DNA of 64,000 nt from Polytrichum commune. Lineage: Eukaryota > Streptophyta > Polytrichopsida > Polytrichales > Polytrichaceae. Shown piece by piece: positions 20,301-47,400 of this stretch (within the stretch, counting starts at the first letter, position 1; every line of letters starts with the position of its first letter). The notes beneath the pieces were generated by a model, which was given only the letters and a program-made list of their open reading frames with translations, did no database searches and was not told the origin of the DNA. The stretch lies in contig OX485804.1 in assembly GCA_950295325.1 (NCBI GenBank), forward strand, positions 40,846,429 to 40,910,428. The letters are read 5' to 3'. Made by a program: the position numbers and the translations under genes.

Positions 20301-23300
20301 TCAGGCATGGGATGCCCTGACCAAACCCGAAAACTTGGAGTTCTGGTCATTTAGCAAAGCACGAGGAGGACCTTCTTCAACCTGCAAAACAAGAGTGTTA
20401 AGAATCTGCTCCTAATCCTTTGCCAAACATAGATTATCAGGTCAAGAAAGCAGACTCGCTTCTGGCTGAGGAATGAAACTCAATCTACAACATTTTTATG
20501 TTGAGGGTGAATAATAGAGAATTTAAATTATAATCAATTTTTGTGAAGGTGGTTGGAAGCTTCATACCATTTTCCCATGCTCCATAATAAGAACACGGTC
20601 TAGGTCAATAATTGTTGAAATGCGGTGAGCAATAGTGATCACTGTCAAGTGACGACACTCTCTTGTGACTGTGTCCTTTAGCAATGCGGTTGTTTGTGGG
20701 TCCACATTTGCTGTGCACTCGTCCAAGCACAAGATCTGCAATCCATGTTTTCAAAGAATCTCATGTTAGAACTGGAACTCATGGGGGGTCACTCCTTTGT
20801 AGTAACATATGAACCACCTGAGGTGAAGGAGTATGTTTAGGGAGTTTAGGGAGCTAACGTGCATGTTCATGGGCTATTTTGCATAGTTGATGAAGATTCT
20901 AAGCCCTAACCCTAAACCCTTGCTGAGAGGGAGATGACTCTGATCACATTGCCACCACCGTGAATTATGCTGTTGCTTCATCTTTGATTTGGTCTAATTC
21001 TATGTGTAATGCCTAGACAGGTAGCACAGGAATTAGAGGACCCTTGAAGACTTCTGCCTTCTTTCAAAGATGAACACCTTGAAAGGGTGCGGGCACACTG
21101 GCTTGCACCCATCTCCCCTGGTTCCAATTGGTCGATGAAAATATCTAGTGCACTGGAAACCTCACTATGATTGGGTGAGCCATAATGGTAGGGTGCACCA
21201 AAAATTCAAGTGTTAAGGAAGGTCACTCCTCCAAGCACTATTCTGGCCTTAGGGGGTTTTACCTCGAAGTTCCCACAGGATCCAGGTCAAGGCCTTGGGT
21301 TTAAGCCAGGTTAAGCTCTACTTACAGGTGCAGTTCCTAAAAGAGAGCGGGCCAAACAAAGCAGTTGTCGTTGTCCAAGTGAAAGGCTTTCGCCTCCTTC
21401 AGCTACTTGGAGGTCCAAACCTCCTGCACCAACCACTGCCTCCTTGATGTGACACTTCTCCAGCACTTCCCACAAATGGTAATCGCTCACCGAGCCACTT
21501 GGATTCAAGTTTTCTCTGTCCATATTAGCAATCAAGAAACAAGGTGAACTATTAGGTCAACTTGAACATCGAGATTTGTGTAGTCACATGTTAGCTAATT
21601 GGATCACCTGGTCTACCACCGGAATAATCCTACCAATAGGGTGATTGTGGTGAAATGAACACAAATGATGTCAAGAAACCATTTAATAGGATTTTGTAAG
21701 CTACTAGTATAAGTCCGTGATGTCCCAGCTCATTTTACCCATGCATATAAATTATGTCCCGGGCCATCCCACATCTCTCAACATGTCACTGTCCATGGAC
21801 GACTGTTTTCGGAAAAGTTGGTAACGGTGGGGAAAGGTTGGCCCACAACCTCATCACCACCACCATCCACATTGACCATTGTATATTAGATTTTGTTTGA
21901 CATGAAATGGACGAAGAGCTCTACCTTAGTGTCCCTTCGAAAAGGAATGGACTTTGAGGTACAATTGTGAGGCGCGAACGGAGAGTTCGAAGAGGAATGT
22001 GGAGAGTGTTCAACCCATCGATCAATACACCTCCGCCATTAATAGGTGTAAGCCGAAATAGACAACTCAAAATGCTTGATTTTCCAGCCCCTGTTCGTCC
22101 TGCAATACCAACCTACTGCCCCAAAGGTCTTATCAGAAAGCCTGTTTGTGTTAACCTTGTGGTTTTCAAGCATTGAAACAACGAAGAATAGGTAGAAGCT
22201 GAATTTGTGGTGTCTGTCAGTTCAATGAAGACATTGTTACATCTATGCACTTATCAGAGTTTCCATAATGGCCATTGTTGTTGAGGAGGATAGGACTGGG
22301 GTCTTACTCACAATGTAGGGATTAATGCGCAAACCAGCTTAAAGTACATCACTTGTGACCTTATGTTGAGGGAGGCCGAATGCTCTTGTTAAGGCAGCCA
22401 TAGCCAAACCTAGAAAATAGATCAGACTATATGAACTGGGTAATGGATGCGAGGAGCCTTGTCATTGCTTGTACTAGATGCCCAACTCACCAAGCTGTGG
22501 TAGCGACGAGGTAGGTACAATTGATGTCAAGGTAGACAAGGTGTCCATTACTAGATGTAGTGTGGTCAAGCTACGATTGCGTCATTGATATGGGTGATAA
22601 TGTGCCTCCTTGTGTCCAATCAAGAATAGAATCTTGGCTTGACCACTATAGTGCAAATGCCATATTTATAATGTAATATAATAATAGGACTATTACACCG
22701 TTCATGGTATTTAGTGTCACATGTGTAATAGTGTCACCTACCCTCTTTTGAGGCGTATGTTAGGTTACACTAATGATCAACAACCTCACCATTAATATCA
22801 CCTCATGACACTCGGTGTTCAAGCGTGCTTACTCATATCTTGACATGAGTACGTTTAACAATTGAATAAGGTGTATGCCTATGTTACACAACGGTCTACA
22901 AGCTGAATAAAGTGTACACAAATGAAATTTGGCATTAGTATGCTCAAGAATATCTTCCTCTTGCATACTAAAATGTAAACACATGACACTTGCCATTAGT
23001 ATGCTCAAGAACATCATTCCTTTGCATACTAAAACGCAAAACTATCATCTCAAGTATCCCAATGTGCTACATTAAAGGTTGCAACGTGAATACATTTTCA
23101 CTTAAAAAACCATTGTTGATGAATGATATTATACTGGCAATTAGTGGACAAAACACTTTTAGACCTCTCGTTATCTAGTTTAGGCCCATTGCAAATAGTG
23201 TATGTGACACTACATACCATAAACGGTGTAGTGCTGTTGACAATCACCTGTTCCCTAGGTTGGATCGAGAAGGAGACACCGTTCAGTGCGGGGGGTAGCC

Positions 23301-23409
23301 AGGGTAGATACAAGAGGGTGACATGGCTGAACTCCACTGTTCCTTGTGTTGGCCAGTCAGCTGCAACTTGCCTGGTGCCATCATCCACCTCTGATTCCAC
23401 ACTCATGTA
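20301..23409 (-). CDS. ABCC gene: NBD2 exons
   Basis: Exons 23248-23409, 21925-22112, 21326-21515, 20568-20735 and 20301-20381. They encode [12 protein letters not shown] to the stop after LVRASHA. Walker A, the Q-loop region [14 protein letters not shown], the LSLGQ signature, Walker B with the catalytic glutamate (LDECTANVD) and the switch histidine (TIAHRIST) are all present, so this is the hydrolysis-competent site. The arginine codon AG|A is split between 21925 and 21515, and the other junctions are phase 0. Confidence 0.9.
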
Positions 23410-26400
23410 CTGTGTTGTCCGTGCAAAAGAAACCCATTAATTTTCTATTTTTTTATAATGGGATTGTTACACAAGCCAATGACAGCCTAATGGAGGACTT
23501 GTCCAAATAAACATTGGTTACTCATGCACATCTTTCAATGACACTCTAGTAACTTGTGTGGCAGTGAACTGAATTAAGGTAGGTGACAGTCGTGGTTTGT
23601 CATATGTGTTCATTCAATTTATTGAACTGGCTGTGGAGATTGTGAATTTTGCAGTGATGGGCAGTTGTGTTCAAGTCTCCAGGAGTTCACAACCACCTGT
23701 TGGACCCGCTCCACAGAGACCATTTCTTTCTCGGTCTCTGTGAACGAGGTCATAAGATCGCTCAAGAGCCCAATTATAGGTGTTGCATACGACAGCCCCA
23801 AGCCTACCTGCCATGGTAGCAAATATGAGAGCCAAATCAGTTTGTGTCTCTTAAGGTTTAGGTGCATCGTCTGATGCCTGCAATTAATTTGACTCTCTTT
23901 TATTTAAAAGATAACGCCTGTGTTTGCTGCTGCCACCACTAATATGATTTGTAGAGTTTCTTTTTCCTGCATGCTACTGTCTCGGCCTCGATCAAGAGGT
24001 GGACTCTTTTTACTGGTTGTAACCAAGGCAACTTGATTGCCCATTAACGTTGTCCATAAACTCCCTTAAAGAGGGACGAAATCATGGCTTTGTTCCTTCA
24101 TTCATAGAACAATCTATTTAGGACTCGTTAGGTCATCGTGCATCAAAGCCTAATTTGAAAGTTGGGTGAAACTTATGGGACTTCCTCTTTCCACTTTAAA
24201 AATTTTGAGAGAATTTTAGGATCTAAAATAGGGTATGCGCATGGGACCCGCTGTCCTAAATCCAAGATCCACCTACGCAAGGCTAGCTTGGCCAACCCAT
24301 CCTAGTAGGACAAGCTAGAAAATTGGTTTTTAATAGCCTGACACCACTCTTTTCGTACGGAAATGTAAGCATCAAGAAAACTTGGGTGATTTTGTGTTAA
24401 CACATGGTTTGGGACTTAACCATGGTTTCATCTTCTTAACTTTACAGATAACTCTATTGTTCCTTCACTAGTTGCCTCAGTACCCAAAAATTGTAAAATG
24501 ATAGGTTAACCTGGTGACTGACCCCCACAATCATTGGATGGACCACAGTGGGCAAATCTAGCATGGTTCAGTGGATAATGGAATCCACACTGCTTACAAA
24601 GACGGAGAATCGGAGATGAGTTCCAACCGATTAATCTATTGGCTTGATGCTTTGAGCTGAAATACATGGCAGACACTAAAGAGACCCCAACAAGCTCTAT
24701 CCGGCGTGACAGATGCTGGTGGGGCCCACCACCGAATTTGCCCCCCGAAACTTTTCGCATCCCTACCCACGCGGTTCGGGCAACGTTGCCCGACACCTCT
24801 TCCTTGATGTCTGCCGCTTCAATAAAATAGCAATTGCCTTTTAGCAAAATTTCTTCAATATCATGGTGTTGTCCTTCACTACGATTGTCCTTCAAGACTC
24901 AAATTTGTCCTTCATGCCTATTGTCCTTCAGTAGGATTGAAGGCCGCTTCTCCATATAACCCATATTGAGTGCACTTCATCTTCAAGGTCCAAAATTCAA
25001 TATATATGTTCACTTCCATTGAGTATTAAGTAATTGATTAGGATTTCTTTTTCAAGGTGAAACCGATAATAAAACATGTAATTAACTTGGAAGTCAAAAA
25101 CTTTACAAAAGCCTCATTAACATTGAGGCAATATCTATTGAGACTTACCATTGAAAGGGACATTGTCATTCTAAAATGAAACTAAAATTAATGAATCTAT
25201 TTTTAGTATGTTTATTTTATAATAATCTAGTTAATGTCTTCTATTTCCCCAAGTATTCATACACATTGTCCTTCAGGACTGCAATTGTCCTTCATGACTC
25301 AGTCTTGTCATGCACTGCGATTGTCCTTCATCACCTTTGTCCTTCACTGCGATTATCCTTCAGGACTCAGTTTTGTCCTTCATGTGTGTTGTCCTTCACA
25401 GTAGGATTCAAGGTTGCTTCTCCATATAACCCATATTAAGTGCACTTCATTTTCAAGGTCCAAAATTGAATATGTATGTTCACTTCCATTGAATAAATAA
25501 GCAATTGATTGGAATTTCCTTTTGCGAAGTTAAACCGTCAATAAAACATGTAATTAACTTGGAAGTCAAAAACATTTCAAAAGTCTCATTAGCACTGAAG
25601 TTGTGTTTATTGTGACTTATCATTGAAAGGAGTTTTATTATTCTAAAATGGAACTAATTTTAGTATTTATTTTTTAGTGTGTTTAATTTAGTTAATACTT
25701 TCTAGTTTCACACAAGTATTCATACCGTACTATCAATGTGTATGAATACTTTTATGTATCAATATGTATGAAAACTTTTATGTATCAATGTGTATGAATA
25801 TTTTTATGTATCAATGTGTATCAATGTGTATGAATATTTTTATGTATCAATGTGTATCAATGTGTATGAATACTTTTGTACTATCAATGTATCAATGTAC
25901 TGTATTCAAAGGTAGTTGAGCACAATCAGAAAGCATGCTCAACTACCTTTGAATACAGTACATTGATACATTGATAGTACAAAAGTATTCATACACATTG
26001 ATACACATTGATACATAAAAATATTCATACACATTGATACATAAAAGTTTTCATACATATTGATACATAAAAGTATTCATACACATTGATAGTACGGTAT
26101 GAATACTTGTGTGAAACTAGAAAGTATTAACTAAATTAAACACACTAAAAAATAAATACTAAAATTAGTTCCATTTTAGAATAATAAAACTCCTTTCAAT
26201 GATAAGTCACAATAAACACAACTTCAGTGCTAATGAGACTTTTGAAATGTTTTTGACTTCCAAGTTAATTACATGTTTTATTGACGGTTTAACTTCGCAA
26301 AAGGAAATTCCAATCAATTGCTTATTTATTCAATGGAAGTGAACATACATATTCAATTTTGGACCTTGAAAATGAAGTGCACTTAATATGGGTTATATGG

Positions 26401-29400
26401 AGAAGCAACCTTGAATCCTACTGTGAAGGACAACACACATGAAGGACAAAACTGAGTCCTGAAGGATAATCGCAGTGAAGGACAAAGGTGATGAAGGACA
26501 ATCGCAGTGCATGACAAGACTGAGTCATGAAGGACAATTGCAGTCCTGAAGGACAATGTGTATGAATACTTGGGGAAATAGAAGACATTAACTAGATTAT
26601 TATAAAATAAACATACTAAAAATAGATTCATTAATTTTAGTTTCATTTTAGAATGACAATGTCCCTTTCAATGGTAAGTCTCAATAGATATTGCCTCAAT
26701 GTTAATGAGGCTTTTGTAAAGTTTTTGACTTCCAAGTTAATTACATGTTTTATTATCGGTTTCACCTTGAAAAAGAAATCCTAATCAATTACTTAATACT
26801 CAATGGAAGTGAACATATATATTGAATTTTGGACCTTGAAGATGAAGTGCACTCAATATGGGTTATATGGAGAAGCGGCCTTCAATCCTACTGAAGGACA
26901 ATAGGCATGAAGGACAAATTTGAGTCTTGAAGGACAATCGTAGTGAAGGACAACACCATGATATTGAAGAAATTTTGCTAAAAGGCAATTGCTATTTTAT
27001 TGAAGCGGCAGACATCAAGGAAGAGGTGTCGGGCAACGTTGCCCGAACCGCGTGGGTAGGGATGCGAAAAGTTTCGGGGGGCAAATTCGGTGGTGGGCCC
27101 CACCAGCATCTGTCACGCCGGACAGAGCTTGTTGGGGTCTCTTTAGTGTCTGCCGAAATACATGACCTAATCACTCTTGAAAATCTGGACAAGGACCATT
27201 AGTAGATTTAAGGGTGATAATGGTGGTTATTATAGGACATTTCTTGAAAACCCCTTTCTGTACAGGATTCTGCACGCAACTTATTCGATCCGTTTTCGGC
27301 ACTGATGATTATCCTGTTTTTTTGCATCGTGGCTGGGAAAGTCATCACTTTTAATGCCATCTTTGGATACATTAGGACTCACCAAGCCAGCTGTTGCTGC
27401 AGCAATTTTGGAATCAGTTCGTATACGGTTGGTCACGGCCATGGTGTTGACAAAACTCACAATAAATGCTGCTAGCATCTGCAACTTCAACCAAGTTGGT
27501 CCCAACTCAATGGCACTGTTTAAGGATTGTTCATTAAGGTTGTTTCTTGATATTACAATCCGGTTTTGTAGCCTCGGAATTATGTTGTTTACTCAAAACA
27601 ACCTACAGAGGGCATTGGCAGAGTAGTTTCAGATCTTTGAATCTGACAGAAGGTTCTCCAGTATGTAGATGTGAGTTTTTGTGCAAAGTTCTGACACGCA
27701 GGCAACGTTATGTTCTTTTCTATAAAGATAACTGGATGGGATCCAGCATTTGTGGTGGATCTTGTCATCAGTAACTGTAACTTCTCTACTTTCTTTTTCA
27801 AGCATTGATCCACCTCTTGTAGTGTTCCATATTGCTGATCCTATAATTGCTTCTTTTCTTTCATAGAACAGAATCTTGAGAGGCCACAAACACTAGATTG
27901 CGAGTTTGATAGGTGTTAGAATTATCCTCTTACTCAACATGAATTTTGGTTGGGAATTGGTTGTTTGCATAAAATAACTTCCATGTTCAGTGAATTTTTT
28001 GGTGCATGCTTGGAGATAGTGTGGAGGTTTGAACGATTTCTTTTACTATTGGCTCATCAAGGGTCAAACTCATTTGGCATGCCAAGAGGTGCTAAAATCA
28101 GCATGACCCTTGGTGAATTGAAATAGGCTACTCTTCATTCAAATTCAAATACTAATTCCAACTGGAAAGAAATGATTGATATTGTCTGAAAAACAACCAA
28201 TGGAAACATCATATTTGACAGACTCCCAACGAAAAGTTTCATTGAGTTAGAAAACTTTATTGAGGTTCTTAAATATGCAGACCAATATTAGATCTGGCAT
28301 TCGTCACTAACCTGAAGCCGGATCGAAAGCCAAAGGCTTGCAGCTAATTCTGCATACGAGGCTCTCTGGTTGAGAGCGACATCCTTCCAGTTCTTCGCTG
28401 CAAATTGGGCCTGGGATCATTCACCTTTTCATACTGTCATAAACCTCGGGTATAGTGAAAATCCAAGTTCAAAATTTGCTGACTACAGAATGTAACCTAA
28501 TTGTACATGGGATTCACAATATGTAATTTGGTGACAACAATAATGGCACAAGTTACATTTGTCCAGAGTCTTCAATACTCATCCACAACAAAAAGCTACT
28601 GTATAAACTCCAATCTTTATTATGGTCTGAGTAGTTGGGAAAAGCTCCAATCCAAAGGATGTTTTGAGAAGAATATCTGAGGATATGTTGTGCTTTGTGT
28701 GTTGTGAAGTTTTCATCTTTGCATATAAAAGTGTTTCACTGACTAGAATCCTAGCCAATGTGGGTAATTGTAATAAGTATAGATGGAGTTGTAAAATTTT
28801 TGTATGGTATCAACTCTGATGATAGCAACTACTAATGTTGGGCCTGAATAATACATTTGTGCTTGAATAATACAGGTGCTCAAGTATATCTCTGGAGGCA
28901 ATAGAGGTATCCTGTAAAGTCTCTGAATCAAACTCTGGGTGAGTTGGCTAAAAAGGTGAGTTTGAGTTCTTGAGCTTATGCATAAAAAGTCACCAAGTCT
29001 ATCTTAGGATGTAATTTAATAGGCTAAAGGAGTAGCGCCAGGCTATTAAAAATTGGCTTTCTAGCTTGTCGTATTAGGATTGGTAGACCAAGCTAGCCTT
29101 GCATAGGTTGCGCCGAGATTTAGGGAGTTGGAACTCATGAGGCATACCCTAATTTAGTTCCTAAATTTCTCTCAAAAAAAGGAGGGAGGTCAAAGAGTTT
29201 CACCCAACTTTCATAATTAGTCTTCGACATAAGAGGCTCTAAGGAGCTCTTTATAGATAAGTCCCTCAAAGAAGGAGTTCAATAGACATCTTTAGTAGGG
29301 TTATGTGTAAAGTAAAGCAATTGAAATCATGAGATTAGTCCCACCCTAAGTTTATGAGGATTAACACAAAGTCACCCAAGTTTTCTTATGCTTAAATTAT

Positions 29401-32400
29401 TATACACAAGAGTGGTGTCAAGCTATCATAAACTAGCCTTTTAGCTTGTCCTACTTGAATGGGTAGGCCAAGCTAGCCTTGGATAGTCCAATATGAGATT
29501 TAGGATAGCGGATCCCATGCACATGCCCTATTCTAGATCCTAAAATTCTCTCAAAGTTTGAGACAAGGTGGAAAGAGGATGTTCCAAAAGGTTCACCTCA
29601 CTTTGAAAAGAGACTCCAATACACGATGAGCTTACGAGCTCTTAATAGAAAGTATTCTCAAAGAAGGGTCAAACCCATGGTTCCGTCCCTCTTTGAGAGA
29701 TTTTATGACGAGCTCTGCTATGGAGCCAGAAATGAAGGTTGACACAAGCTTAGGGTCAGGGGTTTGTGGCTCATACTTGTGCTTTGAAGGAGCGGATAGT
29801 GGCAGCACCATCAAGTGCCTCTGTGAAGGAGGTGTACACAGGTGACCGTGATACGCTATCAAGCCGTCTTAGCTCACGAGATGTCGCACGGTAATACCTC
29901 TGTCAACCAATTCAGTAGCAACCCTGAAAACCAATATGTGGGACATCAACTACTCCTCTAAATCAAACACTTAATCTAGTATAGAAAGAGGACATATCAA
30001 AACTACACACCACTCAGCAACCCTAAAAACCAATATGTGTGACATCAACTACTCTAAATCAAACACTTAATCTAGTATAGAAAGAGGACATATCAAAACT
30101 ACACACCACTCAGCAACCTTGAAAACCAATATGTGGGACATCAACTACTCCTCTAAATCAAACACTTAATCTAGTATAGAAAGAGGACATATCAGAACTA
30201 CACACCACTGAGCAATCCTGAAAACCAATATGTGTGACATCAACTACTCCTCTAAATCAAACACTTATTCTAGTATAGAAAGAGGACATATCAGAACTAC
30301 ACACCACTCAGCAATCCTGAAAACCAATATGTGTGACATCAACTACTCCGAATCAAACACGTAATCTACTGTAGTATAGAAAGAGGACAGATCAAAATGA
30401 CACACCACTGCTCGACCAACTCGATTTCTGGTCAACACATCAGACCAGACTCTGGACTCTGGTCATAAAACTTTATTTACACAAAATTTACTTCTTACCG
30501 ACCTGCATGCTAAGGTAGAAGAATCCTATGGGTAACATCACCACCAAGAATGTCCACTGCACCAGCGCCACACATCAAGTGACATCACAAGCAGGTTAGT
30601 GGATTGCCTTCTACAATGCAACCGCTCCCTCTGCTTATCCTTCACAGTTGTAGGTGATTGCCACTCTTTCTTCTTTTGTGCATTATAAGGGCCGGTTTGC
30701 AAGGGGTCTCAAGTCCTAAGTCCTAGTTCACTTGATGTTCATCCATGCAATCTCAGCCGCTGAGAGCATGAAAGTTGGGACTTAACACTACACACAGGAT
30801 CCCAAGTCCCTAGTCCCAAGCCCCAAGTATGATATGGATGTCTACATGGCCTCACTTTATGGAGGTGAGGTTCAAAACTTGGGTTGAGCAAAAAGTTAGA
30901 TCTGACTTGTAACACAAGTCTGGAGAACTTTTTGCATGAAATAATTAAGATTTTACTATAATGGATATAAACCATACTTTAATTTTTTCTTGAACTCAAA
31001 ATTTGGAACTTTGCCTTCATGTTGGGACTTGCTGACATGAGTGCGACTTGGGACTCGGGACTCCATTTGAAATGGTCCTTAGTCAATACACTTAAGTCAT
31101 GAATGGGTACATTAGAGAGGGTCAAGCATTATCAAAGTCAAATCATTACTCTGAAAGTAGGAGGAGGTTCTCAATATCCACAAGGGACTCCGGGAAATTT
31201 AATTTACCACCTAGGGAAACAAGTGGCTCCATTCCATAGATTTGTCCACTTTATCACATGTTTCCCCCAAGTGGTAAATTTCCATTTGTCCCATGTGATT
31301 TTCCTCACCACATAGGACAATAAAGTTAATTAATGAAGTCTCTAGGTCAAACTTTGGGTGTGAGTTGGCTGAAAAGATTGAGTTTGAGAGCTTATGCATA
31401 AAGTGGCCCAAGTTTTATAAATGCATACATTTACATGTTAAAAGAGTGGGGTTGGATTATAAAAAATAAAAAAATAAAAAAATGATAACTCTCTAGCTTG
31501 TCATACTAGGATCGGTGGACCAAACTAGCACTTGCATAGGTTGAGTTGGAAATTTAGAGTGGTAGATTCCATGAGTTACAGACTAATTTAGATCCTAAAG
31601 TTCTCGCATGACATATTCTTCATAAAAAAAGGTGGTCCAAGGAGTATCACCCTTTTTCCATAAATAGGCTCTAGTGAGCTCTTGATAAAAAGAAAGTCCT
31701 TCAAAGAGACACCATCCTCCTTGTTTGCTCCCTCTTTGAAAGACTTTGCGGATAGGTCTAATCATAGATGAATGCCCTGAGGGGAAAGCATTATGAGATT
31801 TGAAAGCACATGCTCGAAAATTTTGGAATGCACGACCTTGAAGGCCATTCCCTTACATAAAGGCTATTTGCAGCAAGACATTATGGCACAATGCACTGTG
31901 CGGGAGCTATTATGCAGGGCATAACGCATGGTCACCTCAAATGAGTGGATTCTGTTAAATAATGGTCAAAATTTGAAGAACAAAAAAAAATAGCAGGACT
32001 ATATGTGGAGGGTGATTACCTGAACAAAGCACAACACAAGTACAATGCCTGTGAGCATGAAGCACTTTGCTAGCAGCCCATTCATGGTGAATGGGAGCTG
32101 GTCGTCGACTGTGTATAAATCAGAGGAGAATCTGCGAGGAAAACAATGTTGCATGATGCGCTTCAACGATTTTATGAAATACCTGAATAAAGGCAAGCAC
32201 CAAAACCGTTCCAGTGGCCATGACAAAGCGGTTTAACAACATGCCGCCTGCAAAGGGCAGAGAGTCATCTATGGAGTACAGGTCCGTCAAGAACCTGCAC
32301 CCCAGCCATTCATGCAAATGTTTGGCCTAACTGAAACCATGAACCAGTTACTACAGCTGGAACTTGGTTTCTCCTAGAATAATTTCATGAAGGAGAATTG

Positions 32401-35400
32401 ATTGTCTTAACAATTGCTAAGCTCCGTCTGCCACTTACCCTGGGCATGAGAATAATATGGTCAAAGGCTAGGAACATGTTGTGGTTCTTGAGAAATGATA
32501 GCCTATGTTTTGGTACCATGTGGCAGGGTCCTCATGGAACACGGCAACTCTTTCTTCAAAAAGGGTGAGGGAGCATGAGGCTTAGTATTGTTGTGGTTCC
32601 CCCAAAAGACAACAGCGATGAAACGTATCTTATCCTCACTACTGAGAATAATAGTTGTTTTTCGAAGTAGAACGAGCCATTACTATTTTTCTAGTGATGA
32701 GAATAAGTGAGAACAAGTCAACGGTGAGAGTAAGATAGTCTTTTTGAAGTAGAACAAGCCATTCATTTGTAGACCGGGTAGTGCATGTTGATTTATTATA
32801 AGTTTGCCAAATAAATATAGAAAGTGCATAGATGTCGACCTGAAATCATAGGTTTATGTAACAATCTTGCAATTTTAAAAGAGAATGTAGTGGCACGAGC
32901 CACCCAACCATGAGCTATGGAGAGTGTTGGAATTCAAAGAGGTTAAGGTAGCTCAAACCAAAAGGTCTCAAGTGACCGTAAACATTCTCGATGAGTAGAT
33001 GAACAACCAAGTGATTGATATTCTAGTATCTCAACACGAAATGTCAAGAGACTACAAGTGTATTGTACATATGCATAAAAAAAAAAGACACATGGATGAG
33101 AAGAAACGCATCAAGTTATGTGCCTTCCTTCTCTAAGATTGGGTGCAGAGCCTTTCTCTCTCTCTCTTAAACAAAGAGAGAGAGCTTGAGAGCAAGTAGC
33201 ATGGAGACGAACATGATCTCTCAACCATGCTTCCTCCCCATAGCTCATGGTTGGGTGGATCCTGCCATGACGTGGTTGTTGAGGGATCATCTTCTTCTCC
33301 AATAGCTCATGGCTTGTTCAAAGGTATGTCATTACTTTGGTGTTTGTTCTCAAGCCTCCTCTCCATAGCTCATGACTAGGTGGTTCATGCTCAACCATGA
33401 CATCTCAAGCACACCTCTAGAACTACCAAATTGTTGTGACATATCATATTCACTTAACAATGAGGACACATGTTGTCTGCACACAAAGTCAACAGCGTGT
33501 GCTAACTCCTTGCTTCGTTCACAGTAGATCAAGTATAGTAATCTCCCCTTGAAGTACGCACTTTGAACCGGAGCTGTTGGTGCGCACTTAGTTGGTACGT
33601 GCGTACTTTACTCATATCGCTTTCTAGACCCTTTGATTTGATGAATCACAATAGGAAATAGATGAAACCTGAGGCGACCCCCTTAACCGAATCTGAAACT
33701 GCTAAAGACTTCAAAAGTTTTCAAGCTCTACACAACATTGTCCTCGACATCGACGACCAATTGCTTTGCTCCAATGTTCAAACGGAAGCTAGACAAATGT
33801 ATGATGAACTGCGACGATCGTTTCAGCGAAATGTGAACAAACTGACATTGAATGTCAAGCGTAAAAAATTAATGCATTTGCGACAAATGACTCTGCATGA
33901 CATGTTCAAACAATAAAGTATGAACCCTGATTTTTGTCAAAAAAATTGCGCACTTAACCGGGTCCGTACTTGAGCGGGAGATTACTGTAGTTCTAATTCA
34001 CATATACAAGTATATAGTACCTGTTGAGGATGCGACCCCGGGGGTTGCGGTCGAAGAATGTGACAGGGGCTGTAATTATCCTTTCCAACAGAGCCTCGTG
34101 CACACAATAGGCTGCCCGCAAACCCCCAGTTGCAAATGAAAATGCTCTTGCAAAGGTGAACACTGAGTTCGCTCCGGCTAAGGCTAGCATCACTTTCTGT
34201 GCAAGCACACAGAATGCAAGAGGTTGTCAAAAGGGGCTAGCTGTCTCTCAGAGCCGTAGTTTACATTACCTAATTTTTTCCATTGGGAGGAGATTATAAA
34301 GAGGTTATGCCCTCCACTCGATATTTCTTATGCTGAACCACACATTCAAACACATGATTCCACCTCGTTTAGAAATTGTTATATGGTCCGAGACAAAATT
34401 TTACAAGGTTCTTCAATGATGTGCAAAATCCTTCCTGATGGAAGTTATGTAGAAAATGGTCATTGGGTGCACTAAGCTCGCAACCACCCACCGTTTGGTC
34501 GGGTCCACCCAATGGCCATTACTTCACGCAGAATTTGCATAGATTCATCTTAGAGTTTGACTCATGTCTTTTTAGTTCAGAATTAGGAAACCTTATACAC
34601 ACACATAAAAATGATGCATATGTTTTAAATTAGTTTATTTTTGGGTCCACACCAAGTAGGATGACGTGTCTTTGGCCACACCACTTCTCAATGAGTCCAC
34701 CCAATACGCAAGCCACAAGTCACTTGCGTTGCGACTGGCCTGCATCAAGGTGGTGCTCACAAGGATCACAGCTATCATGGACCATCCCACAAATGCTGCA
34801 TACCCACTACATCCATCCATTTGTCCCAAATGTTTCACTCAGTCAATTAAGATTCCATTGTTATGGTTAGGCATGTAGTTGTTTGACTTATGACTACACT
34901 GTACAAATGTCATTTATTGTGGCATTAAAATTGATGTGTCATGTTAATCAAAGTGGCTTTCATGGCTTGTCTTGTAGTAGCAAGTGTACCATGCCACGCC
35001 ACCACGTGATTCCAAGAATATTCATGTGAGTCGATGATGAATGGTGTGGGCCACACCAAATCAGATGTTTAGTGTAGCAGTATGAGCTTACTTTTGCCAG
35101 TTTCCTTGAGTTTGAATTTGAGTTGGTGTAGGTGTATCCATGCCAATCTTTTCGTACATACCCCTCAAAAACCAAGAGTTGTTGCATTGGATTTTTAGAG
35201 AATGTAATCAAGATTCAATTAGTTGGATGTTTTGAAATCAACTTGTGATATTTTATCTTAGCTTGTGCTAGTGTAGGTGTCATGGCCTATGTAAGAGCAT
35301 GCCCACCAAACTGGGCAAATGTTTCTAGCTACCATTAGCTACTGAACTCATGCAACATAGTTGTCTCGTCGTGTGTAATAGCAAAGCTCCACATTTGTCG

Positions 35401-38400
35401 CAACCCTTGCTAGCCCCCATTGACCATCTTGCCAATTTTCATTCCTAGCAAAGGTTACGAGCGCTAACTTTTCGCATTCCGCCATGCTAATGGTTAGCTC
35501 CTCCTACCCCGGACCTATAGTTCATAGGAGGGAACCAACCCTCCTACTTTGCTTTCGGGACTCACCCCTTAATCGGTAACCAATTCCCAAATGTGGACTT
35601 CCATCCATGAAGTCCAATCCTATGTTGATCATCGCATTGCCGGAGCAACACTACAACAACCCGAACCATACTAGGCAACTATGGCCTCACATTGGCCCAA
35701 AGCCCATGGAGGCCATGCCGTTCGGCCTCGGGTGGGTGAGGCCACACCACCTCACCCATATAAGCCTCTAGGACTCTATGCGGGGCCCCTACCCCACCGT
35801 CAACCAACCTCTTGTCTCTCCACCAAGAGTTGGGGCCAAGTGGACATTTTCCTTTAGTTGCTGGGCCTAGAACCCCCCTAGCAGCTTCAGACCATCATAA
35901 CTTCCTTGTATGATGTCTGATGCTAACAACCAACCGCTCCATCTTCATCTACGCTTCACGTAGATGCCGATGGACTCCTCACTTACCCCATTCGGGCAAG
36001 TATTGAGGAAGTTATGCCTGTTTGAACCTTGGCAGTCCCGGGAATCACTCCCAGGCACTGCTGTACCAAGGCGCTGTCCCGGGACAGCGCCTCACTCAAA
36101 TGGCCATAACTCCTAGCTCACACCTCCGCTTGAGGTGATCTTGAGCATTCTAGAATCACCATGCCATGAGCTACGCATAGCTCATGGCCTTACCCTCATG
36201 CCTCCTAGTCTCCGTGGGTGGGAGGCGTTCCCAACGCCCGGGGCCCTCACCCACACTAGGATCACTTGGGCCCTCTCACCAACGGCGCCACAAGTCCCGG
36301 GTGTCACTCCAGGGTCCCCCTTGTGCCCATGGTGTTTCGGGCACTCCTCATGGAGAGGTGCGCGACAACATTGCTCATCGAGTATGGTAAAGAGGGTCTC
36401 TATTTTTATGCTTAGGTTGGTAAGACAGATTAACCCGGCCAAGGCCTCCAAATAAGGTCCTCTACAACATAATTAGTGGACAACGAATATTTTTAGTTAT
36501 AAACAAAGTAACATTCATGTCATATTACCCTTAGAAAATCTATAAACCCTATTATAACAAGAAAATCTATAGGGACTAGTGAACATGAAGCTATCCAAGG
36601 GAAGTGTGTTTGTGAACTTGAAAGATTAAGGTGTCTGATTCTTCTTGGGCTTCACTAAAAGTCTCTTAGTAAAGTCTAAAATGCTAGAATCATTATTTAG
36701 TGTGGCATTAAAATCGACGTGCCATGTTGATTAGAGTGGCCTTCATGACTTGTCATGTAGTAGCAAGATGCCCCATGCCACCTTCTTTCATTGTCACCTA
36801 GCAGTTCCAAGATCATTTACGTGGGTTGATGATGAACAGTTTGGGCCGTACTAAAACAGATGCACGTGTAGTGTGGCAATCAATGTTTTGAAGTTACAAC
36901 CCTATGAAATAAGTACCATGCTTGATGACAAAGTTTGGGAGTTGTGGAATTGGACAGTGAACATACCGGTAGACAGTTGCATGAACCCGGCCTTCTTTTC
37001 GGGTCTCTTCTTCAACTAGTTGATTGAGTAGCTCTACTGGTGGTGACACACAGTCCAGTAAGTCCTTGGTTGGAGTAGCACGTGATGTTGCTGGGCGGTC
37101 GGGATCTATCCTGTTCACAAGCGGCGCCAAATGCTCTGACAAGCTTCGAAGAGAGTAGACACCCAACGCCCGTGTAGATGATTGCAAGTCCTCATCATTT
37201 GGCTCTACAATTACATCTACAAAGGTGAAACATTGCAAAGCACGCACCTTGTTATCAATAAGTATTTCCAGAGACACCAAACCGTTCAGAGATAAATGAA
37301 GCCCAGAACTCATAATAATTCAAGGCACTCACTCTTTTGCTCCCCCCCCAAAACCAATGCATGTAATATCTCCAAGATTAATAAGCATGTTGACTTCCCA
37401 ACCATGAGCTATGAGATATACAAGCAACTCCTCAAGTATATTACAGAATTGTGTCTCACTCCCTCCATGCATTTCAGTCTAGATCCAGATAGCCTAAAGG
37501 GTTCAGTCCCATTCACACTTACACTTGAATCCAGCTAGGTAAAGAATTAAGTTCACACGCTAAATCGCATCACCATTTCACTTTGCATTTTATAATATGC
37601 ATTCAACTTTAAGCAGGAGATTGTCAGTTCTGACTTGGCAACCAGATGATACTCTTAAGAGGAGTTTTTTCTTATCAAGCTCCTTCTGTGTGTGTTTTGG
37701 CTTGAAGTTGACAATAGACCTTTTGAGTATAGTATAATGGCATCATTTTACTTGTATCAAGAAAAGATCTAATATTATTGAGCGAGATCTGAGGGACGTT
37801 TTGGCAGTGGGCAGAAACATCCTCGTATGCGTTTAGGGGTTGATTTATTTGCAAGGAACACACAATGAAAGTCTTGTTATATCTCAGTAATCACAAAATT
37901 GTTTATGCACCTGATGTTGTGATCTCGGCAGGCTTTGATGAGGTCCCTGCCAAGGAGATGGTTGGTTGAGATGTGGATGCAACAGGGTCACTGGACGTTG
38001 CTCCATTTGTATGTAGAGGTTGCAATGCTCGCGCTACGTGCTCAGCCTCCGACCCAGCAGCATCTCCTAGCAATGTGGCATTCAATCCTGCTGGGCTTCC
38101 AAAGTATTTCACGCCACCGTTCTCCATCAAGACAACTAGATCTGCTATTGCAACTGCCTACACAATTGCAACATATTCACATTCTGGTTCAGCTGATTTG
38201 TTGCAAGGTCACCGTAGTAGCCTACAAAGAACATTTCTTGAGTGGTCTTCATGCATCATCATATCTTGTGTGCCTTGGAACTTGAAGAGCTACTGTAACA
38301 GTGACCCTCATTCCTCAATTATCAATTATACATGATAAAATATGAACACTAACCAAATCTTGGAACCATAACAATGAAATTCTGGAAAATCAACATTTTA

Positions 38401-41400
38401 ACCTGGAGTGACAAACCAAGTGTGTTGTCATCCTATCTCCATCATTTTTATAGAACATCAAGTCCATTTCGACGCCCTTCTAAACCGGTGGTGAAATTCT
38501 TGGAGATTTTCAAATAAACCTTACACAATGTTGTCATCCAAATAAATCTATAATTGTCGCTTCAGTAATATTGTGCTAGAGTATATTCAGACTAAATAGG
38601 TTTGTAGTATACCTCACTATGGTATGTGCAGAGGACACGTGTTTTCTGAGTCATTAATGGCCCTGTAATTGCATGTTGCAGGAGCCATTTTCCCACATGA
38701 GCATCGACAGCACTTAAAGGATCGTCAAGTAGGTACACATCACAATCTTGGTACAAAGCCCTGCATGGTAACATTGCCTTCTGTAAACCTCTTTCAATTT
38801 TGAACGAAGTTTACAGGTACTTCGTGAAGACAAATATTATACTTGTTACACTCATCTGAATAATATTATGTGTTTGATGCACACTTCAAAGAGGTTTATT
38901 CGCCTTGGACTGTACATTGTAAATTGGGGTCACAATCCAGACCACTTTCGTTTGTGATGAAGGTTTCATGCAATTTTTTATTTATTTTTAAGGTAATATG
39001 TATATAGCTCTCAAACTGTCATTCTACGAACTTGCAATGATATTAGTTGATTCCAAAAGCTTGTAAACCTTGCAAGGGCAAGTCGAGATTTTTGACCCCC
39101 TGACAAATTCGAGCCTCGTTCACCAATTTCAGCCAAGTCTCCTCCAGGCATGTTTTGGATGTCTACATCCAATGTACAGGCTTTCAATACTTTTTCATAC
39201 CTGCCACATCATCAACCGATCCTCGAGCTTTAGATAGGTCTGTTGTGTATGAATTGGAAATCTTTACAAATAAATTAGACTCTTTCTCTTCATCATTCAT
39301 GAGCCTGACAGGTTCATAAATTTTAAAGTGGTTCTTAACTAAATGGTTAAAGTCAGACATCACAAAATCCAATATTATACAGCAATAACTGAGGAACGTC
39401 AAATATGAAACATCAAATACACCTTTCTGGATCAAACTGCCACCCAAAGACGATGTTGGCACGGAGTGTTGTTGCTTGAATCCATGGACTCTATTGAAGG
39501 CCAGGCACAATTTTGTCACACCCAACATGTTTGGAGTATTAGCGTAGCCCATGATTACTAGACTTCATTTCTAGCAAAGTATTTTGAGTAGGAAGAGCAT
39601 AACTTTCATTGCAATTTCTGATATAAAGGGTAGTGTGTGTGTGTGTTACCTGCGCCACGAAAGCTGGGCAACCATGCATCTTGAAACTCCCGGCCATGCA
39701 ATGCATTTCACCCAAAATTGCATTTAACAATGACGATTTTCCAGCACCTACCTATCGAATTGAACACCATGTCATTTGATTACATTCTTAGATTGGAAAC
39801 CTTAGTATTGACAATCGCAAACCATATGATACCAACATTGTTCTCAGATACGCACACTTGTCTTCACACTTTCATACTGGTGGCAAATGTTGACCTTTTT
39901 CTGTGGCTCTATAGGGTCGAAGTGGCCACAAACATCTTGACATGGCCTTAAATAGAGGTGAAATAGAACAACATGGGAGCCAAATTTCTGCGTGATATTC
40001 ATTAAGACAACTCGGTTTTATGTCTAATCGTTGACCTAATCATGATCACAACCAAAATTTGTGGTCAAATTGTCTTTAATGAACTAGATAACCAGCAAGA
40101 GGAGCCGGGGGAGAGGTGAGTCATTCTCATACTTGAGTAGGTAATCATAATCAACCAGTTCATGAAACGCATATGACAATTATGAATGATATTGTGTCTC
40201 CATGAAAGATATTTTACGACGAATTCTAATAACCCTTCTACACTTGGATGAACGATTGGATATGAGTATGAAAACTGACACATGGAACCCAACCATGGGT
40301 TAAAGCTAGTTGCCTTCATGAGCCATGGCAGGAGTGAGTGGACATAACCATTGTAACCTAGCGTCAAAGCCCTCGTGACAATCAACATGCATAATCAGTG
40401 TGAGGAGGCATTTAGTGAGGAAGAAAGCAAGATTTCATATTGGTTTCTTGGTTTCAAGTAGACCAATCCTGAGGGACTCTGGCTATGGATTATAACCGTC
40501 CTCTTCATAGCCACTAGAAAGGCACCACATCCTCACGATTCCTTGTGATGCCAGTTATGACACATGTAATAGCGCAACACTGGCTACAGGAAGAAGAAGA
40601 TGAAGAAAAAGAAAAGAAAAAAAGAAGCATCAAAACAAAAAGTGGCAAACAATAAACCCCACCTTGCCCATAATGACGACAAGTGAACCTCTCGGAATGG
40701 ATAATGAGATGTTTTTGAGTGTCGCAGTTTGTAGATCTTTCTTTGTGCTGTCACACCATGTGAAGCTTGCGTTAGACACGACAATTGCCATCCCTTGGAG
40801 ATTTTGGGTGGAGAATGGATCCCCTCGGCCCGGAGACTTGTTTCCTTCAGTCAATGGGAAAAGTTCCATGGATGCAGGCATCTGTATACTATCTTCAGCG
40901 CTCTCGACTTCGAAACAAATTTCCTTGGTCCAATGCGGGTCGAGCTCCGGAGACCCAAGGTATTGTGCTATACGCCGCATTGAGACTCGCGCCTGCATGT
41001 GCAATAATAATTAGGATTGGCCGCGTCAAAATTTGCAAAGGTGTAGAAAAAATTTAAGAAACGCAGGAACTTGGGCGTTTTTACACTGGCGTGTGATGTG
41101 TGTTCACCACCTCTTGTCCATTTCCGCATGAGAGTGGGAGAATGTAAGGTGTTCCTCGTTACTGGGTCATGAAAGGACCTTCATATGAAGATTGGATCAA
41201 TTCCTTGGGTGTTATGCCTCATATGTGTAGTATGGAATGAGTTATAGCGTAGGTTTGAGCCATGGTGGTTTGTAAGGACAAATCCCAACCATCCAAGTAT
41301 GTAGATTTGAGCTAGTCCAATATGCAACCAGGTTCCAACTATAGTTGGCACCCAAATCCTATTAATGAACGTTTATTTAGGCAATAGTTATAGGAGTACA

Positions 41401-44400
41401 TTTGAAGGTTTACGCATTTAGGGGTTGAGGCAAAGGGTTGACGCATGTCGTTGCATCAATGTTGGTGGTTGGTGCTTCACACGTAGCCCGTAGCCTTATT
41501 GAGTTCCATTGTGTAGTGAACTTATTGGTTGTTTGAACCTTGAGCCAGACTGCTACTAGCCATAACACATTGTGAGTTCCATTCCATAATGAACTTACTA
41601 ATTGCTCCTACTTTGTATCATAGGCTAATAATTTCCTTGAGCCTACACAACCTCAAGGCAATCTTAGATTATTACACACCTAACGACATACTACTGAGTA
41701 AAGAAATGTCTTAGTTTTGTCTTTGTATTATTCTGCACTTTCTCTCACATGTAGGACATGTTGACATCTCACAAAATCTATATGAGAGACATTCATGTAG
41801 ACAAATGGAAGAACAAAAAAATCCCACCCAAATTACGCATCATATGTGAAAGATATTAGAGTTATCCTTTAATTCAAAGGAGTTTGGTAGGGAGTTTCTT
41901 ACAAAACCTTCCATGTTTGGCAAGCTTGAGGTGCATGCGTCGGAGGTCGTGTGGAGGTTTGAACCAGTAACATTCTATATCAAGGAATTGAGGGTCAAAC
42001 TCATTTTAGCAACGCATGCGGTGCTAAAATGAGTTTGACCCTCAATGAACCGATATAGAATGTTATTGGTTCAAACCTCCACACGACCTCCGACGCATGC
42101 ACCTCAAGCTTGCCAAACATGGAAGGTTTTGTAAGAAACTCCCTACCAAACTCCTTTGAATTAAAGCATAACTCTATTGGCTCCTAAATTTGGCTCTTGC
42201 ACGACCAACACGTGGAACTGCCCTCCAAAACAAGCAATGCCAAACCTAATAATAAAATCCTACATGCTTGGAGTATGAGATTTTGTATATGTTATTTTGA
42301 CCCACATGATAGTGGGCACCACCCTACAACACTAAATACCTTTTCATCCACATAGATTTCCACCTAGTGGATCTCAAACCCAAGTAGAATATTAGATGGC
42401 AACCCATTTCGGATTGCTTGAGCATTTAAGGGTTAGCGTGACCAATTTTGTGGCATGGCCACAATGTGTTAACATGAATTGGTTTCAAGTCTATACATGA
42501 AAAATGTCTATACAAAGTTACGACAACCAACATGAATATTGTGTGCATACCTCTATGATTCCATTGATGACCCATGGAAATGAATTGAGGGGGCCGATCA
42601 AGATGTTGAAGAGGGAAAGGCTTGTGAAAACCTGCAAAATCATTTACGAACTCCACATTTCATCAACCACATATTTTGTACATTGGTATCTTCACTCTTT
42701 GATGCACCAAATTTCGTTCAACATCTGAGAGTTTAGGGTTTACCAACGTACTACAAGCATGACTATTATCAAACACATCACAAATATCATGAAACTTATA
42801 TTATAATTCTTTTGTGAATCTTACGGTTGCTGCGTCAAGGGTGTGTCCCATAAGGACAAACACTCCAAATGTACACAAAGAAAAGAGAGCAGGGGTGCCT
42901 GCCCAAAAGTAGACGCAAAACGCGTCCAAATATTTTCGAGTCTGCACCCAAACACAACCAACATCCATGGACAAAATGGCAGGTAAATCCACACAAACAC
43001 GTCACTTGATGGTGTTATTGCTCTTCAAAATACTTAGGGCCACTTCACACACAAGACTGAGAGCCCGTGACCATTGCACTTCAAGCACTCTCATTGGTGG
43101 AAAAGGCGGAGCCCGTCCAAGTTTGCTTCACACTACGCTTGAGGGACCAACGGAGTATATAAGTGAATGCAAGATGGATGTAACGACTACATGGATCCCT
43201 ACATGGCATCGAATGGATCATGTTTCATGGTCACTTCAACTATTTTCAAAAATCACCTCTTGGAGGTGGGCCTAATACAAAACCGGGAGACTATGGCACT
43301 TCGATTGCTCACAATCGTTGATTTATTTGATTTTATCATGTGTGAGGACCCGCATGACTAGAAATTCATTGAAATAGCATTTGGTTGAGGGCATGGTCAC
43401 ATATGGCTTCACACTACACTTGAGGGTCCATGACCACACTACATGATTTTGGAGGTGTCTTGGGACGGCCTTTGGACACTTTCTTTTGGGCTCTCACAAT
43501 TTCATGGTCACAGCTCTTGGCTCGTGTGTGAAGTGGCCCTTACTCGCACAAGGCCAACTGCATGACATTGTTGAGCTTCTTATGGGGCTGGTTTTAGATG
43601 AGGAACAAAGGTCAATGCCATTAAGAATAGCGCGCCAGTTTCAGACGCATTGAATATCGAAAATATGTCAAATTGTCTGAGATTAGCATATTGACTTAGA
43701 GGTCTTAATAATGTTATACGGTGTTCAACAAATTATGACAATAATAGTGGGTCAAATCAAATTGTAATTTTTTGTTGTTGAGGATGGGTGGGCATAACAT
43801 TATTCAAATCCATAACAGTGTTTAGTGAGACTGACAGTATTCCACAAAATATTCCCGGATATATTTCCAAACTAAATGTGGAAAAAATCCAGGAATATTT
43901 TGTGGAATACTGTCAGTCCCACAGAACACTGTTATGAACCTGAATAATGTCATGGGTATTCCAAACGTTTTGAGCCAAACTCTATTCTAAAGGAGCTACA
44001 TACGAGTCCTTGAGGCTTACGCACAGAAAGTTGCTTAAGTTCCCTTTCCCGACATTGCATGATCCGCTTCACAAACATGGGTTCCCATGTATACATCTTA
44101 ATCGTGCGGATATCCTTCAACAATTCTCCCATCCTCCGCACCCTAAATTCATCTCAAACACAACACAAAGTTCATAATTAAATTCAAAGAACATCGAGTC
44201 ATTTACCTCCACACACATATTGGTCTTTAATATGGTGACACCAAAATGGGCACCGAACCATTCCAAAAGAGTCGTAGACAGAGAATGAAGAACCCTAAGT
44301 TCCCTGAGCAGCTAGGATATCCATAATAACTTGGTAGTTGAGCAAGGATGCTCTCCCAGGGGTGCACCTTTCATAACACGTATGAGTATAAGTGAGAGGA

Positions 44401-47400
44401 CAAAAGGGGTTTTGATTTGAACTTTTCTGTACAATATATACAAATGCTACACAAATTGTAACTCTTAGGTATGTACATGTATGGAGGACCTGTAGAAAAT
44501 ATATAGCATTTGCACTTGTATGGTACGGTCACTTATTGAGGCTCGTTTATTTGGAAGTATGAAGGATGATAAGGAGTGTGATTATGACCACACGTTGATT
44601 GATGATTTTGGTGCACAAGATGGTGGCAAAGAAATTTACCGTGTCGGAGAAGACTAATCAAACATGTGCAAGGGTGTTGTCATAGAGACAAATTTGAGGC
44701 AGTCGCAAGTTGAAGATGATTTACATGAAGATGTGGAGTTGCAAAGTGAGCTTCAACATGCCTTGGATGTTCTAATTGATGAACATGAAATTGTTGAAAT
44801 GCCCTTTCAATCTAATGGAAAGCCCATTGTGGCTTATGTAGAGGTAGGGAAGTCTAGAATCTTCAAAAGCACACTTGTGAGTCAATTGAATGGCAATCCA
44901 AATTCATCTAAAGATTGATTGACTCAGATTAAAGTTGGCATATTATATATGAAGCCTAAACTTCTTACCGCCCTGAATCATGCTACTATGTTAAATCTTG
45001 GTTGTGATTGTGGATTGTGTTTTTCAAACACACCTAAAAGTAGAATTGTCAAGAAACGTGGTAGACCAAAAAAACCAGCTCTAATTAAGGTTTGGTTCGT
45101 TGGGAGGATTTATAAAATACGTAGAAAATGTGGTAATGGTTGGGTGGAGTATAGGGGTCCAATTGACTTGATGGACCGTCCATCAAACATGGAGATTGGC
45201 TTATGTTGGTATCGAAAAGGAACCAACAATAAGTGGACTGACAATCTTATGAATCATTTGATGGTAGATTTTAAAATAATGATTGCATTAGCTATTACAA
45301 CACATATTGTAGACTTAGATGCTTATGAGTTACATCTGGAGATGAAAAAGTCTTCAACAACTTTATTAACAAATGCTAGGGTTTTACATGATACACATGA
45401 TAGGGGTTCATCATTATTCAAAAATATATTTGTATACTTATATTAATGACTATATATGAATGTAAAATTTTGTACATATACATATTGTCACTTGTATTTT
45501 TGTCACTGAAAGTGTGCGTGCATTGCTTGATTTTACCAAAAATTAAATAAAAGTATATGATGGAGGTCTTTTAGAGTATTATGTTGCGAACACACATGAT
45601 TCTTGGTTTTTAATGAAAGGTGCACCCCCCGGGAAGATCTCTAGAGTAAAGAGGGGAGGGGAGGGGGTATGTAATGTGCTAGCCACCATGTGAACGGGGC
45701 TCTATAGTACCTAGATATAACATATTGTGAACAAAATGTCTTTTAGAATAGAACTAGAGGCATGGGAAGAACACTTGAAGAGGAGAGGGGAGGGCAAGGG
45801 GAGCAATGAACATGGAGAACCAACCATTTGTTACAGATGAACCGGATGAGTTTGAGAAACAAACAGTTTAAGTTCAAGACTTCATAAGAATTGCCAATCA
45901 TTTTAGAGGAATCTATAGAATATACTTCAAATAAATAAAGAAAAACCAAAAGATTTCAACATGTAACCAGTTGGACTTGGAAACACTAGGATCTTGACCG
46001 ATTATGCCCAAAATTCTCCCCGGACATTGAAGGGGAGGCTCTCTCTTCTTGGTGTGAGTGTTGCTTTAGCCTCCGGGGCTCCTTGTGTTCATGGTTGAGT
46101 GATTAATATGCCAATTGCTTACAATATTTGAGTGAAACTTTTACACTATGACAGCTTGAAAATTGAACGTATACAATCATGCTATGTAGACATACATCGG
46201 TGAGAGTGAAGTTTCTTAAACAGATAACCTCAAGACGTTGTTTGCATTTTAGACAATGTTTCTGCAAGTTGAGGTTGTTGCCATGTTGCATTTTAGTTCT
46301 GGATTTACCTTTCGTCTTTCTCCTTCATCATTTTTTCACTTGAACTGCTAATTTTTAATGCAATGATCCGATTCACTGCTCCGCACACACAACAACAGTG
46401 TCCTTGTAGGTGAGGCCCATGAAAGCAAGTGTAGATGAATTTCAAGAAATTATGTTTTCAATCGTAAATTTTGAGGTTCATATCTTTAACCAAAATAATA
46501 ATAATAATAATAAAAAAACTGTGTGTTGAGAAATGCAAGTGTGTGATTAATGATATGGTATGACACTCACATGGAATGAGGAGGATGAGAACCCCTAGTC
46601 CTGCAAGAAATGCATATTGGACTTCCATGTAAAGCATCGTAAATGCTACAATTATCTGCAAAGGCATGCTATGAAACCACCCCATCGACAAAGGTTGAGA
46701 GTCCTTCACAAAAACCTATTACGATGCATCAAAATCAAAACTCATCAGTCATCTATATCTTTGCATAAGAAATCACCAAAAGCCAAAGTTGTTATTATAT
46801 GTTGACAAGGAAATTTTTAAATTACCTCCACAACTCATGAAGGCTAGCACATAAATTTACGGTTCGATCTCCATCAACGGACATAAGAGTTTGAATTTCT
46901 CCATTCGAAAAACAACTCCGTTCAGCCAAGCTCACACATAATGACTGCATGAAAGTAACTCATGCCTAAGTTCTAGGGATGTGTCACTTGAATTATGTTA
47001 CATTTTATGAGTCAAAGGCCCTTCACACAACCTATTGAACACTTAATTTCTAGTTTTGTTATGATTTCCAAAGCATGCATTTTCAAAGTGTAATATCATC
47101 ATGGCAGCAAAAACCCGGTAGAAATAACACTCCTACAGGCTAGCAAATATGAAGGGTGCAACATATAGGTGTCTGATTTTGAGTTACTCTCATAAGTTAT
47201 CTACATTGATTATCCCGATTAATGCATATGACTATTTGGAGTTATGCAGTGCAATAACATCTTACTCAAGACTTTAATTTTTTGTAACAACAATTCAATA
47301 AGTTGTTCGGACATTATAAAACATAAATGACTTTTTCTTGGTAAAATATTCTGTTCTCTTCAAATAGTTATTGCACTTCAAGTAGTATTGAGCAAGACAA

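Follow-up and report, generated by a model that had tools for sequence, protein, structure and literature searches.

The system closest to the one treated here is the MRP gene of Drosophila, for which one cluster of two mutually exclusive exons and another of eight have been described (PMC4588896). The preliminary description of the DNA analysed here had named this gene as the known case of variant exons in an ABCC transporter, and the fly case stands; the list was incomplete, however, since distinct tandem exon events have been reported in worm, human and fly ABCC genes, among them C. elegans mrp-1 and human ABCC9, which are other genes in other lineages. In plants, the Arabidopsis gene FLM/MAF1 has mutually exclusive adjacent exons, with translatome reads for both (PMC3266260), and Kassiopeia lists 99 candidate mutually exclusive exons in A. 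thaliana, which its report calls preliminary (PMC3923563). In vertebrates, exons 4a and 4b of OGDH stem from an ancient duplication, and branch points that lie too near the upstream donor enforce their exclusivity (PMC7969005). Long-selected tandem-exon switches are documented in animals, while the plant cases that we met are FLM/MAF1 and computed candidates. Among the papers listed from an open-licence library, covered through titles and the starts of abstracts, no report of tandem exons in a plant ABCC gene or in a moss was found, which is weak evidence of absence.

The present analysis concerns a window of 64 kb (the whole stretch of DNA studied) from the moss Polytrichum commune, which holds a gene of the ABCC13 type with two adjacent, similar exons, referred to as A and B. 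The features on which the argument depends are the following:

20301..49796, minus strand: ABCC13-type transporter gene, with 28 exons plus the A/B pair, modelled as 1235 residues with either A or B
34021..34196, minus strand: upstream constant exon, with donor CAG/gtacta at 34021, joinable to A (at 32294) or to B (at 32131)
32183..32294, minus strand: exon A, 112 nt, encoding 38 residues, the first of which is split with the upstream exon
32132..32182, minus strand: interval between A and B, 51 nt
32020..32131, minus strand: exon B, 112 nt, encoding 38 residues, the more family-like of the two copies
30503..30556, minus strand: downstream constant exon, with acceptor gtgcag/TGG at 30556, joinable from A (at 32183) or from B (at 32020)

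Like Drosophila MRP, this is an ABCC transporter gene with tandem-duplicated exons that would be used singly; the fly gene, however, is an animal MRP gene, its cluster is larger and its splicing has been demonstrated, whereas the moss gene is of the ABCC13 type and carries one pair, known from genomic sequence. FLM/MAF1 resembles the moss locus in being a plant gene with adjacent exons, one or the other of which can be used, but it encodes a MADS-domain transcription factor, and its exons are described as unequal, with 19 and 15 residues (PMC3266260). The Kassiopeia candidates were chosen by properties that the moss pair also displays (length, frame, splice sites and sequence), but they are genome-wide predictions, which the available text of that report presents without a selection test. 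Where its defaults allow a length difference of up to 20 residues and ask for a score ratio of at least 15% (PMC3923563), A and B measure 112 and 112 nt, and the A-B BLOSUM62 score amounts to 51% of the B self-score, as computed without the Kassiopeia program. OGDH differs in belonging to another protein family and in having mapped branch points; in the moss pair the constraint is deduced from the 51-nt gap.

The exons of the transporter gene were modelled by tblastn with land-plant homologues, together with splice-junction scoring against seven of these, while four junctions (23248, 22112, 20568 and 20381) and the gene end at 20301 were assigned manually and verified by translation. The boundaries of the A/B pair were adopted from the preliminary description and then confirmed by translation. 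Comparison with the Ceratodon protein indicates that the initial ~25 residues have no place in the model; the gene starts at 49796 or slightly upstream. The model is uncertain at the junctions of two linker exons (38157-38038, 37064-36967) and at acceptor 47560, where the supporting similarity is weak; the A/B pair is unaffected. The encoded protein is a full-length ABCC transporter with two TMDs and two NBDs, carrying GAGKSS, LSGGQ and LLDDP in NBD1 and GAGKSS, SLSLGQ and CLDEC in NBD2; among the matches listed in a first protein search, many land-plant proteins are named ABC transporter C family member 13, and the moss protein groups with these. In a tree of 24 proteins it joins Sphagnum, Ceratodon and one further row, lying outside those three, with SH-aLRT values of 100 and 96. 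On the basis of this one gene, a position of the Polytrichum commune sequence with the mosses, outside Sphagnum and Ceratodon, is supported, most likely on a branch that diverged early among mosses.

Other elements were recorded in and around the gene. The 3.6-kb intron at 27382-23808 contains, at 24668-27154, a perfect inverted repeat with arms of 1174 nt at 100% identity and a 139 nt spacer, in which shorter palindromes and direct repeats are nested; possible explanations are a young fold-back element, a source of double-stranded RNA and an assembly artefact. The intron upstream of exon A has short repeats, both direct and inverted, around CCATAGCTCATGG (33226-33390 and 32891-32924), and these are perhaps the remains of a small mobile element. 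A neighbouring gene on the minus strand, part of which lies at 56096-56497, encodes an mRNA decapping factor of the EDC4 type (Pfam EDC4_C, E 1e-20), and on this strand a 656-aa open frame with no Pfam match runs from 60258 to 62228; our guess is that it belongs to the same EDC4-type gene. A tnp2-type transposase fragment (Pfam Transposase_21, E 1.8e-17) is located at 14366-14761, also on the minus strand. Neither an Rfam match at gathering level nor a tRNA was found in the window.

The organization of the pair itself is compatible with the use of one exon at a time. Exon A is bordered by tgcag/GTTC and ATTCAG/gtattt, and exon B by cgcag/ATTC and GTTCAG/gtaatc; both have GT-AG sites, both are entered in phase 2, and both end on a codon boundary. 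The preliminary description had presented the two as adjacent 112-nt versions of one segment, open, in the same phase and with intact acceptors and donors, and its coordinates and identity value (20 of 37 residues) were reproduced, while translation of the joined exons gave an open frame of 1235 residues with A as well as with B. Its predictions for the remaining two combinations also held on translation: inclusion of both exons reads FIQILL and then stops at a TGA that is the fourth codon of B, and skipping of both reads NSGHSWW and then stops at the seventh codon of the next exon. The possibility that the 51-nt interval is itself coding was rejected, given that its retention after A leads to the same stop after ILL as the joining of A to B. 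At the DNA level the copies agree at 58 of 112 nt, whereas 5000 simple shuffles of B gave 29 agreements on average and 46 at most, and chance similarity was rejected on these grounds. No convincing third copy of the exon was detected in the 64-kb window.

The comparison of the two copies with the family places them in different positions. It involved 119 of the 120 homologues from the first protein search (P0011 was dropped for a gap), in human MRP1 numbering; this first set had been gathered with a query that carried B and lacked A, and a second set was gathered with both. Exon A departs from S1078, N1092 and L1101, present in 119/119 homologues, from A1096 (118/119) and from S1077 (115/119), while B keeps all five; conversely, B has Q at 1086 instead of the family S, which A retains. 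The loop motif DLY..DD.LPF and D1084 are common to both, and A retains the DLY..DDSLPF core as well as G1103. Family profile scores are 56.6 for A and 90.7 for B, against a family minimum of 103.7. The copies have in common three states that are rare in the family, a basic K/R at 1097 (0/119), M1100 (1/119) and T1102 (1/119), and the duplication therefore most likely occurred within this lineage. The ancestral type is probably represented by B, with A as a divergent version that originated in this lineage of mosses.

Among 184 proteins with a local score >60, A outscored B in none, and among all 240 collected it did so in nine, all of them weak matches. A search with exon A only (42 residues) returned 81 candidates, none with E<=10; ordinary ABCC13 proteins were equally unrecovered, so this search was able to reveal near relatives only. 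A profile of 239 residues covering A and B gave 135 matches among 7981 candidates, the top identity over a large part of the query being ~61% among the 120 matches listed, and neither protein search included, among its listed matches, a transcript-derived or near-identical protein of Polytrichum commune. In a tree, the 38 residues of exon A were placed best beside a single angiosperm row, with the position sister to B 3.3 log units worse, and the AU value exceeded 0.05 for all 15 placements printed.

Whether A has been maintained as a protein-coding exon is best approached through its substitutions. Between A and B, pS is 0.89 (saturated) and pN is 0.34, and the bootstrap 95% interval of pN/pS, 0.23-0.61, never reached 1 in 2000 resamples. 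An outgroup exon was deduced from P0188 and P0231, which represent the same Sphagnum-type DNA in two frames, with four bases unresolved; its boundaries coincide with those of A and B. In a codon model with this outgroup, A and B were given equal elapsed time because they lie 51 nt apart and arose together. Under this constraint omega A = 1 was rejected with a likelihood ratio of 14.28 (nominal p 1.6e-4), the largest value in 74 completed replicates of a parametric simulation under neutral A being 4.97. The estimates were t = 1.2, omega A 0.31 and omega B 0.105, so that A evolves at roughly three times the rate of B, and equality of the two omegas was weakly rejected (p 0.025). When the equal-time constraint is lifted, the model becomes degenerate and omega A = 1 is no longer rejected (lnL -359.17 vs -359.03); the conclusion that A is constrained therefore depends on the equal-time assumption and on 37 codons. 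The preliminary description had proposed dN/dS on each copy as a check, and its outcome is divided in the same manner, with selection on both copies recovered under equal time only. Runs of neutral drift from B, with stops forbidden, reached the observed amino-acid identity after a mean of 27 nt differences, as opposed to the 54 observed, and 2 of 3000 such runs matched the family-profile score of A or did better. Together, these data say that, by its pattern of substitutions, exon A has been constrained as protein through the greater part of its history, but under weaker demands or demands of another kind.

The same observations bear on the idea that A is a relic, that is, a former alternative exon that recently went out of use and is decaying, with isoform B the sole product. 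The loss of family-invariant residues and the faster evolution of A are in line with it, as is the finding that none of the 240 collected proteins is clearly A-like, and the estimates of t and of the two omegas allow a recent neutral stretch of ~0.25-0.3 substitutions per site. Such a stretch must nevertheless be reconciled with an exon in which the open frame, the precise length, the two splice sites and the core motif are all preserved: starting from B, 9% of 20000 runs kept the frame, the splice dinucleotides and the identity after 0.3 neutral substitutions per site, and <0.2% did so at 0.5. We regard decay of A after recent disuse as unlikely, while leaving it some weight.

The splice sites of the pair are of good quality. 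When scored with the gene's own sites, the A acceptor surpasses 27/27 others and the A donor 25/27, and the B acceptor and donor surpass 19/27 each; the pyrimidine tract of the A acceptor is poor (8/20), the 28 other acceptors ranging from 6 to 15. U12-type sites were rejected as a cause of exclusivity, as the sites are ordinary GT-AG (the U12 consensus was taken from general knowledge). Thirteen inverted pairs of 14-34 nt were detected among the complementary stretches around the pair, none of which could be linked to the choice between A and B. The distance between the two exons suggests a mechanism. Comparison within the gene itself, to which the check was limited, agreed with the claim that most plant introns are longer than 51 nt: the shortest of the 28 modelled introns measures 157 nt, and their median is 596.5. 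Within the interval, adenines other than that of the terminal AG occupy intron positions 3-36, and the only branch-point-like motifs for B, according to a loose motif, lie at -44, eight bases within the interval, and at -57, which falls in exon A. The OGDH study, which concerns animal systems, gives a proposed limit of ~50 nt between donor and branch point for the simultaneous binding of U1 and U2 (PMC7969005). Any branch adenine in the interval would be 3-36 nt from the A donor, below this limit, and the A-to-B splice is thus expected to be unproductive.

These features also limit a second explanation, in which A would be mainly regulatory, with its inclusion together with B, or aberrant choices, generating unproductive transcripts that lower expression, and no second protein being made. 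The early stops that follow both joint inclusion and skipping are what such a role would call for; yet a poison exon needs no amino-acid conservation, whereas the protein sequence of A is conserved although its synonymous sites are saturated, A is in frame when used alone, and the A-to-B splice would require an intron a third of the length of the shortest other one modelled. A mainly regulatory function of A thus appears very improbable. That the tandem duplicate is an artefact of assembly can be practically dismissed: nothing specific to the pair points to it, the perfect inverted repeat elsewhere in the gene being a reason to check the assembly, while a 311-nt query spanning the pair has a single match in the genome (407.8 Mb, 64 contigs), and the differences at 54 of 112 nt between A and B mean that no duplicated read or second allele was placed in tandem.

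The reading as mutually exclusive exons, already put forward in the preliminary description, is therefore the one that best accommodates the intact copies, the good splice sites, the loss of frame when both or neither are included, the short gap, and the constraint on A under equal time. It is likely, as far as genomic sequence can indicate, that two transporter isoforms are produced from this gene through a choice between the tandem-duplicated exons, and we judge the pair to be real, old and specific to this lineage, its alternative use being predicted. In the proposed mechanism, the donor at 34021 would join in frame to either A or B, and the chosen exon would then be joined to the acceptor at 30556. 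Direct splicing of A to B would be sterically blocked by the 51-nt gap, if the threshold derived from animal work applies, and stray transcripts with both exons or with neither would presumably be cleared by nonsense-mediated decay. The outcome would be two isoforms with a common loop motif and a different start of TM14.

The position of the exon within the protein suggests what such a choice could alter. In an ungapped alignment with human MRP1, it corresponds to residues 1075-1112, comprising the end of the cytoplasmic loop that precedes TM14 and the first part of this helix, whose start was placed near residue 1085 in one study (PMC7203140). Residue M1092 of bovine MRP1, equivalent to human M1093, is located in TM14 and was described as part of the hydrophobic substrate pocket, or H-pocket (PMC8267652). 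At the M1093-equivalent position, B carries G and A carries M, while I is present in 113/119 homologues. The suggestion that the swapped segment is a membrane helix with potential substrate contacts thus agrees with the alignment as far as the start of TM14 and M1093 are concerned, and has to be extended, in that the segment also holds the end of the cytoplasmic loop. Because the predicted isoforms differ at the start of TM14, including a pocket position, a difference between them in substrate preference or coupling is most likely; this is a reasonable guess from sequence comparison. A bolder proposal, which we advance tentatively and would not yet favor, is that an old switch of the moss lineage exchanges, in an ABCC13 transporter, the end of TM14 at the substrate pocket, so that splicing changes the cargo, as an independent plant counterpart of the fly, worm and human ABCC switches.

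ABCC genes of fly, worm and human were already known to have exon switches, as was FLM among plants; what the moss pair would add is a lineage, an age and a recurrence within the ABCC family. If both isoforms are made, animal and moss ABCC transporters would have independently reached the same splicing solution for varying a part of the protein, and Polytrichum commune would provide a testable case in which exon choice sets the cargo or the regulation of a plant pump.
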